A stretch of DNA of 64,000 nucleotides from Marinitoga aeolica (GTDB lineage Bacteria > Thermotogota > Thermotogae > Petrotogales > Petrotogaceae): NCBI RefSeq assembly GCF_029910535.1, contig NZ_CP069362.1:124001-188000 (forward strand), written 5' to 3'. This document shows, piece by piece, positions 23,657-59,709 of the stretch. Under the pieces are notes generated by a model. That model saw only the letters and a list, made by a program, of their open reading frames with translations, was not told the DNA's origin and made no database searches. The first letter of the stretch is position 1, and every line of letters starts with the position of its first letter. Made by a program: the position numbers and the translations under genes.

Positions 23657-23785
23657 TTCTTTTCCCCCTTTGTTCCTTCTCTTATTTTTTTTCATACGTA
23701 ATGCCCAAGATCTGATAGTTCTCGATATATTATTGGAATTCAAAAATAAAACGAATGAAAACTCGAAGGTTGTTTGATCTTCATA

Positions 23786-23983
23786 AAAGAAAATTTATAA
23801 AAATAATGTGATGAACCATTGAAAATTCCCGAGAAAATTCGAATGGAGCAGGTCAATTTTGCATGGATGCAAAATTGAGTGAAGCCGAACACGGATGTGA
23901 GTCTGACACGACCTGCTAAAATGAGAATTTTCGAGGACTCAGAATTTTCACCTGGTGAAGAGCATTATTTTATAATTTTCTTT
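23786..23983 (-). repeat. Fold-back repeat copy A (diverged subtype, inside acyl-CoA cluster)
   Basis: About 198 bp between the FabG-like and thiolase genes. It shares with copies B-D the core hairpin CAATTTTGCAT CC ATGCAAAATTG and the TTCGG...TTC element, but has its own matched ends (AAAGAAAATTTATAAAAATAA / CATTATTTTATAATTTTCTTT) and its own P4 stem GCAGGTC / GACCTGC. Orientation relative to the upstream gene (FabG-like) is the same as in the other copies. No flanking terminator duplication is seen. It fills most of the 347-base gap. Confidence 0.8.
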
Positions 23984-24003
23984 ACTTTTTTGGACATCCA
24001 TTT

Positions 24004-30208: not shown

Positions 30209-30917
30209 AGGGTCTAGAAGAGAAATTGGAAATTTAATTGTATCAGGAAAAGTTAAAGTTAATGGTGAAGTTATTAGAGAACCGTGGTTTAAGGTTGTTG
30301 AAGAAGATATTATAGAAATATATGATAAAAAAATCCATGTGAAAGATAAAATTCAAGAAACAGAAAATTATGTATATTATTTAATTCATAAACCTGTGGG
30401 GTATTTATCTGCATTAAAAGATGATAGGGGAAGAAAAACTATTACAGACTTAATAAAAGGGAAAATAAATGAGCACGTTTTTCATGTTGGAAGATTGGAT
30501 TATAATACTTCTGGTTTAATGTTGCTTACAAATGATGGTGATTTAGCTAATATGCTTCTTCATCCAAAAAGAAAAATATATAAAACATATAAAGCTTTGA
30601 TTAATAAGCATATAAAAGAAAAGGATTTAAAAAAATTAGAAGATGGGTTAGTTATTGAAGGTGGATATAAAACTCAACCTGCAAAAATAGAAAAAGTGCA
30701 AAAAAAAGGTAAATATTCCGAGGTTACTCTCAGCATTCATGAAGGGAAAAAACGCCAGGTTAGACTTATGTTTAAAGCTCTTGGATTTAATGTTTTAAAG
30801 CTTAAAAGAATTAAATTTGGCCCCTGGTCTATAGATGAAGTAAGAAATCCTGGAGATATTAAAAAGCTTGATACAAAGGAAATTGAAATATTTAAAAAAT
30901 ACTTAAAAGGAAGCTAA
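30171..30917 (+). CDS. rluB: 23S rRNA pseudouridine synthase RluB-like
   Basis: RsuA/RluB-family pseudouridine synthase, 248 residues from TTG 30171; a GTG at 30162 is possible but overlaps the RBS AAGAGGTG (30157-30164). An N-terminal S4 RNA-binding domain (about 1-55) is followed by the catalytic domain with D110 in GRLDYNTSGL. The C-terminal SEVTLSIHEGKKRQVRLMF is typical. Its stop codon lies in the loop of the terminator hairpin that is duplicated around repeat copy B. Confidence 0.92.
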   Translation: MIKLQTFLQKIGEGSRREIGNLIVSGKVKVNGEVIREPWFKVVEEDIIEIYDKKIHVKDKIQETENYVYYLIHKPVGYLSALKDDRGRKTITDLIKGKINEHVFHVGRLDYNTSGLMLLTNDGDLANMLLHPKRKIYKTYKALINKHIKEKDLKKLEDGLVIEGGYKTQPAKIEKVQKKGKYSEVTLSIHEGKKRQVRLMFKALGFNVLKLKRIKFGPWSIDEVRNPGDIKKLDTKEIEIFKKYLKGS

Positions 30918-30927
30918 TGCTTCCTTT
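30907..30927 (+). terminator. rluB terminator, first copy (left flank of repeat B)
   Basis: Stem AAGGAAGC / GCTTCCTT around the rluB stop, followed by a short T run. An exact 21-bp copy is at 31160-31180 on the other side of repeat B. Confidence 0.85.
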
Positions 30928-30932
30928 AGTTT

Positions 30933-31158
30933 TAGACAAAGTACAAAATAAAATAATCAAAATAATATTCGCTCATCCAGTGAAAATTCTTATTCCTCAA
31001 AAATGCTCATTCTTGCCTGTCGCTCAAACTCACATCCATGTTCGGTTTCGCTCAATTTTGCATCCATGCAAAATTGTCAGGCTCCATTCACATTTTTTCG
31101 GGAATTTCCAAGGATTCTCTCATATTATTTTTTCATATTTTATTTTGACAGCAGTCTG
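30933..31158 (+). repeat. Fold-back repeat copy B, between rluB and glgB
   Basis: 226 bp running from TAGACAAAGTAC to CAGTCTG. The ends pair (CAAAATAAAATA / TATTTTATTTTG), then GAAAATTC-type arms, then AAAAATG / CATTTTT, GCCTG / CAGGC, and an inner hairpin CAATTTTGCAT / ATGCAAAATTG with a CC loop. Exact 21-bp copies of the local terminator abut both sides (30907, 31160). Same orientation relative to the upstream gene as copies A, C and D. Fills most of the 364-base gap before glgB. Confidence 0.88.
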
Positions 31159-31159
31159 G

Positions 31160-31180
31160 AAGGAAGCTAATGCTTCCTTT
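31160..31180 (+). terminator. rluB terminator, second copy (right flank of repeat B)
   Basis: Exact 21-bp duplicate of 30907-30927 with a longer T run after it. The pair looks like a target-site duplication made by the repeat. Confidence 0.85.
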
Positions 31181-31193
31181 TTTATTATTCCCC

Positions 31194-34885: not shown

Positions 34886-34914
34886 AAAGGAATCGCTATG
34901 TGATTCCTTTTATA
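34886..34914 (-). terminator. Terminator copy on glycerate-kinase side of repeat C
   Basis: Stem AAAGGAATCGC / GATTCCTTT-type hairpin with flanking TATA. It repeats 35142-35170 with 28 of 29 bases identical (T at 34901, C at 35157). Confidence 0.85.
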
Positions 34915-34917
34915 CTG

Positions 34918-35134
34918 TTGACAAAATAAAATATGAAAAAATAATATGAGAGAATCCTTGAAAATTCCTGAAAAAATATGAATGAAGCCGGATAAAATCA
35001 CATGGATGTGATTTTAAGCGAAGCCAATCAGGATGTGCGTCTGAGAGCCCGGCGAGAATGAATATTTTTGAGGATTAGAATTTTCACCGGATGAACGAAT
35101 ATTATTTTAAATATTTTATTTTGTACTTTGTCTA
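34918..35134 (-). repeat. Fold-back repeat copy C, between lytic transglycosylase and glycerate kinase
   Basis: 217-bp core from TTGACAAAATAAAATATG to GTACTTTGTCTA (minus orientation TAGACAAAGTAC...). The inner hairpin is TAAAATCACAT / ATGTGATTTTA where copies A, B and D have CAATTTTGCAT / ATGCAAAATTG. P4 is GCCGG / CCGGC where B and D have GCCTG / CAGGC. All these differences are paired. Near-identical 29-bp terminator copies flank it. It fills most of the 318-base gap. Confidence 0.88.
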
Positions 35135-35141
35135 CAAACTG

Positions 35142-35170
35142 AAAGGAATCGCTATGCGATTCCTTTTATA
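35142..35170 (-). terminator. Terminator of the lytic transglycosylase gene (gene-side flank of repeat C)
   Basis: Hairpin GGAATCGC / GCGATTCC with T-rich arms, overlapping the stop codon (35166-35168). This is the functional terminator position; its duplicate is at 34886. Confidence 0.85.
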
Positions 35171-59414: not shown

Positions 59415-59446
59415 AAAATGACTGCAGCGTGAAGCTGCAGTTATTT
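59415..59446 (-). terminator. Terminator copy, far side of repeat D
   Basis: CTGCAGC / GCTGCAG hairpin with A/T-rich arms. It repeats 59678-59709 with 30 of 32 bases identical. It may also terminate glgP transcripts that read through the repeat. Confidence 0.85.
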
Positions 59447-59453
59447 CAGACTG

Positions 59454-59671
59454 TTGACAAAATAAATATGAAAAAATAATATGAGTGAATCCTTGAAAAT
59501 TCCCGAAAAAATGTGAATGAAGCCTGACAATTTTGCATGGATGCAAAATTGAGCGAAACCGAACATGGATGTGAGTTTTCGTGACAGGCGAGAATAAACA
59601 TTTTTGAGGATTAAGGATTTTCACTGGATGAGCAAATATTATTTTGATTATTTTATTTTGTACTTTATCTA
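59454..59671 (-). repeat. Fold-back repeat copy D, between glgP and ferritin-like gene
   Basis: 218-bp core; read on minus it begins TAGATAAAGTAC and ends TTTTGTCAACAG. The inner hairpin is CAATTTTGCAT / ATGCAAAATTG and P4 is GCCTG / CAGGC. Near-identical 32-bp terminator copies flank it. Same orientation relative to its upstream gene glgP as copies A-C. It fills most of the 372-base gap. Confidence 0.88.
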
Positions 59672-59677
59672 AAAATT

Positions 59678-59709
59678 AAAATAACTGCAGCGCGAAGCTG
59701 CAGTTATTT
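59678..59709 (-). terminator. glgP terminator (gene-side flank of repeat D)
   Basis: Stem AACTGCAGC / GCTGCAGTT just after the glgP stop, with A/T-rich arms; the duplicate is at 59415. Confidence 0.87.

Follow-up and report, generated by a model that had tools for sequence, protein, structure and literature searches.

The end of an rluB-like gene in this genome raises the question of how one and the same terminator hairpin came to stand on both sides of a repeat. We analysed a window of 64,000 nucleotides, which corresponds to bases 124001-188000 of a 2,444,241-bp genome (G000). At this locus, here called copy B, two 21-bp hairpins with identical letters (AAGGAAGCTAATGCTTCCTTT) lie 253 bp apart and enclose a fold-back repeat of ~230 bp, as the initial annotation had described (Table 1). 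A terminator scan placed a - strand terminator at 30927-30906 in the left hairpin and a + strand terminator at 31158-31181 in the right one, and the upstream gene retains its stop codon, which falls inside the hairpin. The fold-back core noted earlier is real, but its former limits (30933-31158) had to be revised: the element proper spans about 30928-31158 and is bounded by terminal inverted repeats, namely CAGACTGCTGTCAAA at 31144-31158 on the - strand and AGTTTTAGACAAAG from 30928. Copy B contains no transposase gene, its largest frame being a 95-aa chance ORF that enters the flanking sequence. The same layout is seen at copies C and D, each with its own, different hairpin, again in line with the earlier description. 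We conclude with high confidence that copy B is a MITE and that a DDE transposase of the IS1182 family, acting in trans, mobilised it; the enzyme would join the element to a hairpin at its 5' feet and thereby duplicate the hairpin.

Table 1 Features of copies B, C and D in the window
Feature	Position	Strand	Remarks
Copy B target hairpin, first copy	30907..30927	.	- strand terminator score; reaches into the end of the rluB-like gene, stop codon included
Copy B MITE	30928..31158	-	Ends are degenerate IS1182-type terminal repeats
Rfam RF01731 (TwoAYGGAY) match inside copy B	30977..31124	-	43.6 bits, gathering 43
Copy B target hairpin, second copy	31160..31180	.	T-tract kept; + strand terminator score
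Copy C target hairpin, first copy	34886..34910	.	25 bp; AAAGGAATCGCTATG[T/C]GATTCCTTT
Copy C MITE	34911..35141	+	
Copy C target hairpin, second copy	35142..35166	.	1 mismatch
Copy D target hairpin, first copy	59416..59446	.	31 bp
Copy D MITE	59447..59678	+	Begins with CAGACTGTTGACAAA, the same letters as at the left end of the G007 autonomous IS
Copy D target hairpin, second copy	59679..59709	.	2 mismatches

A blastn search of the 2.44-Mb genome with the copy B core returned 58 matching pieces, representing about 45-50 copies. When the flanks of these copies are read in a single orientation, constant ends appear (CAGACTGTTGACAAA...TTTGTCTACAAACTG), which are imperfect inverted repeats of one another; the family thus combines the short length (~230-240 bp), multiple copies and terminal inverted repeats of a MITE. 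The hairpin beside the element is terminator-like and differs from locus to locus, while being the same on both sides within a locus. Specifically, an automatic search for duplications adjoining the MITE ends yielded 22 credible cases besides copy B (C and D included), 11 of which are letter-perfect, and at least 23 copies in this genome carry a locus-specific hairpin on both sides. The duplication, whose absence from most copies had been regarded beforehand as evidence against insertion, holds for most copies with intact ends. Additionally, scanning the genome for the end pattern revealed further copies with other interiors.

The hairpin is unlike or absent on one side at L008, L010, L012, L036, L039, L043 and L188. 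The few copies with different side hairpins (L036, L039, L043) would suit an alternative in which the element carries its own hairpins, or in which both adjacent genes already had terminators that gene conversion later made similar. However, recombination between copies, which probably occurred at L188 and, in the window's genome, at L036, L039 and L043, is a better explanation of unlike hairpins, and the agreement of hairpins within loci, together with their difference between loci, also argues against this alternative. L043 (G000:C1:1139804-1139862) is a mini-element of ~60 bp with both ends and with differing side hairpins, ACTTGGATTATACCAAGT and AGCCAGGGTTATCCCTGGCT.

Next, we used the adjacent genes to locate the loci orthologous to B, C and D in six further species of the genus, and read empty sites where the orthologue has a conserved intergenic region. 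One hairpin terminator and no element was found at the site of copy B in G006, G007, G009 and G010, and at the site of copy C in G005, G006, G007, G008 and G010, while the site of copy D holds a single hairpin terminator in all six relatives. As an example, G006 has TTTAAAAAGTGGAAGTTAATACTTCCACTTTTTTATTCCC in place of the window's hairpin-element-hairpin arrangement. Since the empty B, C and D sites in these sister species hold a single terminator, the hairpin was duplicated upon insertion, which bears out the earlier proposal of an insertion that duplicates the whole terminator; a target site duplication and empty sites, as expected of a MITE, are therefore both present. Empty sites with one hairpin are not what resident hairpins or gene conversion would leave, and an autonomous IS shows the same layout in a different genome (see below). 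We consider that alternative extremely improbable.

The element had been taken to be non-autonomous, and this assessment stands: in addition to copy B lacking a transposase, none of IS1182 type was detected in the window's genome, from which PF05598 (DUF772) is absent, and no autonomous copy was found there by isolated element ends or by duplicated hairpins in the stretches examined. Mobilisation in this genome is therefore historical. Two ends lying 3.4 kb apart (L091/L090) were considered as a single large element and rejected, as they are separate MITE-type insertions or remnants around ordinary genes. The initial annotation had suggested looking for a relative that carries a transposase between such ends, and one is present in the same genus. 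In the draft genome of a sister species (G007), the degenerate end pattern gave 35 matches, mostly about 80 bases from contig ends, as is typical where a repeated element interrupts an assembly. This element is an autonomous IS of the IS1182 family with ~17-18 copies. It begins with CAGACTGTTGACAAA, identical to the MITE over 15 bp, and its inverted right end reads CAGATTGTAGACAAA, whereas that of the MITE reads CAGTTTGTAGACAAA (14/15 identical). Its reading frame starts with MLTIRKEHKRNQYEMMITIDDLVPEDHLVRKIDKVIDF and ends with ...ERVFADLKEKHAMRWTTLRGHERV...; these N- and C-terminal fragments, the parts of the gene that the data cover, both match NCBIfam NF033551 (IS1182 family transposase) as their only or best hit. 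Against this model (cut-off 270 bits), relatives that are full-length and have ends of this type reach 478.6 and 470 bits, and one of them combines DUF772 (PF05598), DDE_Tnp_1_6 (PF13751) and PF01609. Further IS1182 copies or remnants occur in G009 and G010, the one in G010 likewise with a hairpin pair, now decayed. The autonomous partner expected of a MITE is thus found in G007, with remnants in G009 and G010, and not in the window's own genome.

All 29 of the G007 IS ends examined adjoin a hairpin. When left ends were matched to right ends, 12 pairs had an identical palindrome of 18-31 bp, perfect in 12/12. The resemblance between MITE and IS is confined to the terminal ~15 bp; since the two differ beyond that, the MITE is not a simple deletion derivative of the G007 IS. 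The ends of the IS (L143, L126) have subterminal hairpins on both sides, CCCGCTTCTAG...CTAGAAGCGGG by a promoter-like TTGACA and CCCCATCC...GGATGGGG at the 3' end, which perhaps guard against read-through. With a DDE IS1182 transposase and matching ends in hand, an assignment to IS110/IS1111 or IS200/IS605 was rejected. Likewise, insertion at hairpins in the manner of a group IIC intron or of IS200/IS605 was rejected, because duplications are present and the parent has a DDE transposase, and so was stem-loop replacement of the IS1272 type, in which the stem-loop is lost without duplication, because here it is present on both sides.

The same behaviour extends beyond the genus. We scanned public genomes for the N-terminal transposase peptide and, with two other Thermotogota genomes added, found complete elements in Lachnospiraceae, Anoxybacillus, Testudinibacter and others, with ends CAGACTGT[A/T]GACAAA or near, and with duplications that are again palindromes. 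The IS1182-type duplications tabulated from several phyla were chosen as detectable direct repeats and so do not measure the fraction of all insertions, and some of them were trimmed by hand by one or two bases to fit the palindrome. In 28/28 the midpoint coincides with the axis of the palindrome to half a base, at lengths of 18-31 bp. The feet have five or more complementary bases in 27 of these 28 duplications versus 575 of 200,000 random segments of the window. Taken together, our data demonstrate that the MITE and the autonomous IS insert at palindromes, mostly bidirectional intrinsic terminators, and that the duplicated palindrome measures about 17-31 bp and, for the autonomous IS, is exactly axis-centred; palindrome targeting, as described for some members of the IS1182 family, is thus found in the parent element. 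Earlier, the element was thought to insert at intrinsic terminators as such; the duplication stands, but the target is better defined as the palindrome, i.e. the stem-loop, and not termination. Two IS1182 copies in G067 have short non-palindromic duplications of 10 bp and 7 bp, so the preference for hairpins is strong without being absolute. The loci are L180 (G067:C1:1127300-1130400; ATCTTATTAG, 10 bp) and L184 (G067:C1:1993800-1996900; CACTTTG, 7 bp), and these duplications are possibly the outcome of the enzyme on linear DNA.

A transposase with a long stagger and no recognition of structure could also yield long duplications, with terminators merely tolerated as landing places through selection against insertions in genes. 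Terminators do lie between genes, where insertions do little harm, and long variable duplications are known for some other IS families (IS1634/IS1549); a literature search for IS1202-type long duplications yielded nothing useful. A structure-blind stagger, however, would give off-centre duplications, so the centring of 28/28 cases, nearly all with complementary feet over 18-31 bp, disfavours this explanation, and we consider it very unlikely.

Recognition of the hairpin itself, which we prefer, would also account for the variable length. In DDE transposons, the length of the duplication is normally fixed by the spacing of the active sites on linear DNA. Here it follows the palindrome, which suggests that the enzyme sees a cruciform four-way junction, since linear DNA would give a fixed stagger. 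As judged from the sequences, the transposase would recognise a stem-loop or a cruciform, probably an extruded one; it would connect the element's 3' ends with the hairpin's 5' feet on both strands, and gap repair would then copy the hairpin. The constant feature would be the geometry of the four-way junction, as the feet of a cruciform are always adjacent, and not a linear distance, so that the length of the duplication could vary. The layout suggests that the enzyme selects its target by DNA shape and not by sequence, and the tracking of palindrome by duplication length makes target recognition by shape directly testable.

Such an insertion would split a bidirectional terminator into two outward halves, with the T-tract for + transcripts at one end and that for - transcripts at the other. 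Because each outward half keeps the T-tract of one direction, both neighbouring transcripts could presumably still end, and the insertion would be nearly neutral; terminators could hence serve the element as safe sites at which termination is preserved. We think it reasonably likely that terminator splitting gives the MITE a near-neutral landing site and spreads the TwoAYGGAY-type structured RNA that it bears.

Duplication of a whole, often palindromic repeat is also known from CRISPR integration by Cas1-Cas2, which is alike in that one respect and has no relation in sequence or enzyme to the MITE. The closest known systems are IS1272 and TnSha1 of staphylococci, which have an IS1182-family transposase and likewise target stem-loops, often terminators, with no fixed sequence (PMC4923244, PMC5678879). 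In those systems part or all of the stem-loop is removed with no target duplication, whereas the present elements leave the stem-loop complete and duplicate it. Stem-loop duplication is drawn as a hypothetical alternative to IS1272 replacement in PMC5678879 (Fig. 13, route 3b-4b-6b), and the present loci supply natural examples of that route. For palindrome-targeting IS1182 members, the two papers refer to Siguier et al. 2015, and PMC5678879 notes that the targeting was given there without detailed data; as far as these members are described there, the palindromic targets are alike, and we document here the exact hairpin duplication, the empty sites and a matching MITE. In view of this known preference of the IS1182 family, the long terminator-centred duplications, which the initial annotation had called unusual, are less mysterious. 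The ISMac2-related MITEs of Methanosarcina are also small non-autonomous derivatives of the IS1182 family, but their direct repeats are very short or absent (4 and 0 in the table of PMC3852290) and are not hairpin duplications. SPRITE, BOX and RUP of pneumococcus are small dispersed elements too, one of them associated with terminator-like sequence (reviewed in PMC10969869); SPRITE, however, is itself terminator-like, whereas here the terminator is host sequence duplicated at insertion. Our literature search, whose scope excluded subscription reviews and ISfinder, found no paper that describes an IS1182 element or a MITE duplicating a hairpin. Palindrome targeting by IS1182 and replacement by IS1272 are already known and duplication of the whole stem-loop is newly documented, part of which may be in ISfinder or reviews.

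The interior of the MITE matches a described RNA family. With the covariance model of RF01731, copy B passes the gathering threshold and copy D, at 42.5 bits, falls just below it. The window's genome has 24 matches at E <= 0.001, about half of them above the cut-off, and 13-15 matches occur in each of three relatives. Among 21 genomes of the family, matches are found in this genus only (G000, G005, G006, G008, G009), and none in the other genera searched. An alignment of 14 copies shows double changes that preserve the pair at 14 of 70 predicted pairs. The Rfam match and these compensatory changes would fit a dispersed regulatory RNA gene that needs a downstream terminator and is not a transposon, and a promoter-like TTGACA-17-TAATAT in copy D (59454-59482) has been counted in its favour, although it lies in the terminal repeat and such motifs are no more frequent than expected by chance. 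An RNA core nevertheless leaves the terminal repeats, the hairpin duplication and the empty sites unexplained, and the same ends move a transposase gene without any TwoAYGGAY core. The other interiors found between MITE-type ends in the window's genome likewise suggest transposition without this core. We therefore regard an RNA gene in place of a transposon as highly improbable; both may be true in the sense of a transposon that carries a structured RNA.

Rfam annotates RF01731 as cis-regulatory. In this genus it behaves as a dispersed repeat, which suggests that a family so labelled is here part of mobile DNA. TwoAYGGAY-related interiors also occur in repeats with other ends. Copy A (23785-23985), for example, has the interior in common with copy B and lacks B-type ends and hairpins; together with L013, L015, L016, L017 and L018, it has a TwoAYGGAY-type interior within a different outer sequence, without flanking hairpin duplication. 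Finally, the long copies L029, L033, L037 and L038 have the appearance of nested insertions, with one repeat type inside the other.
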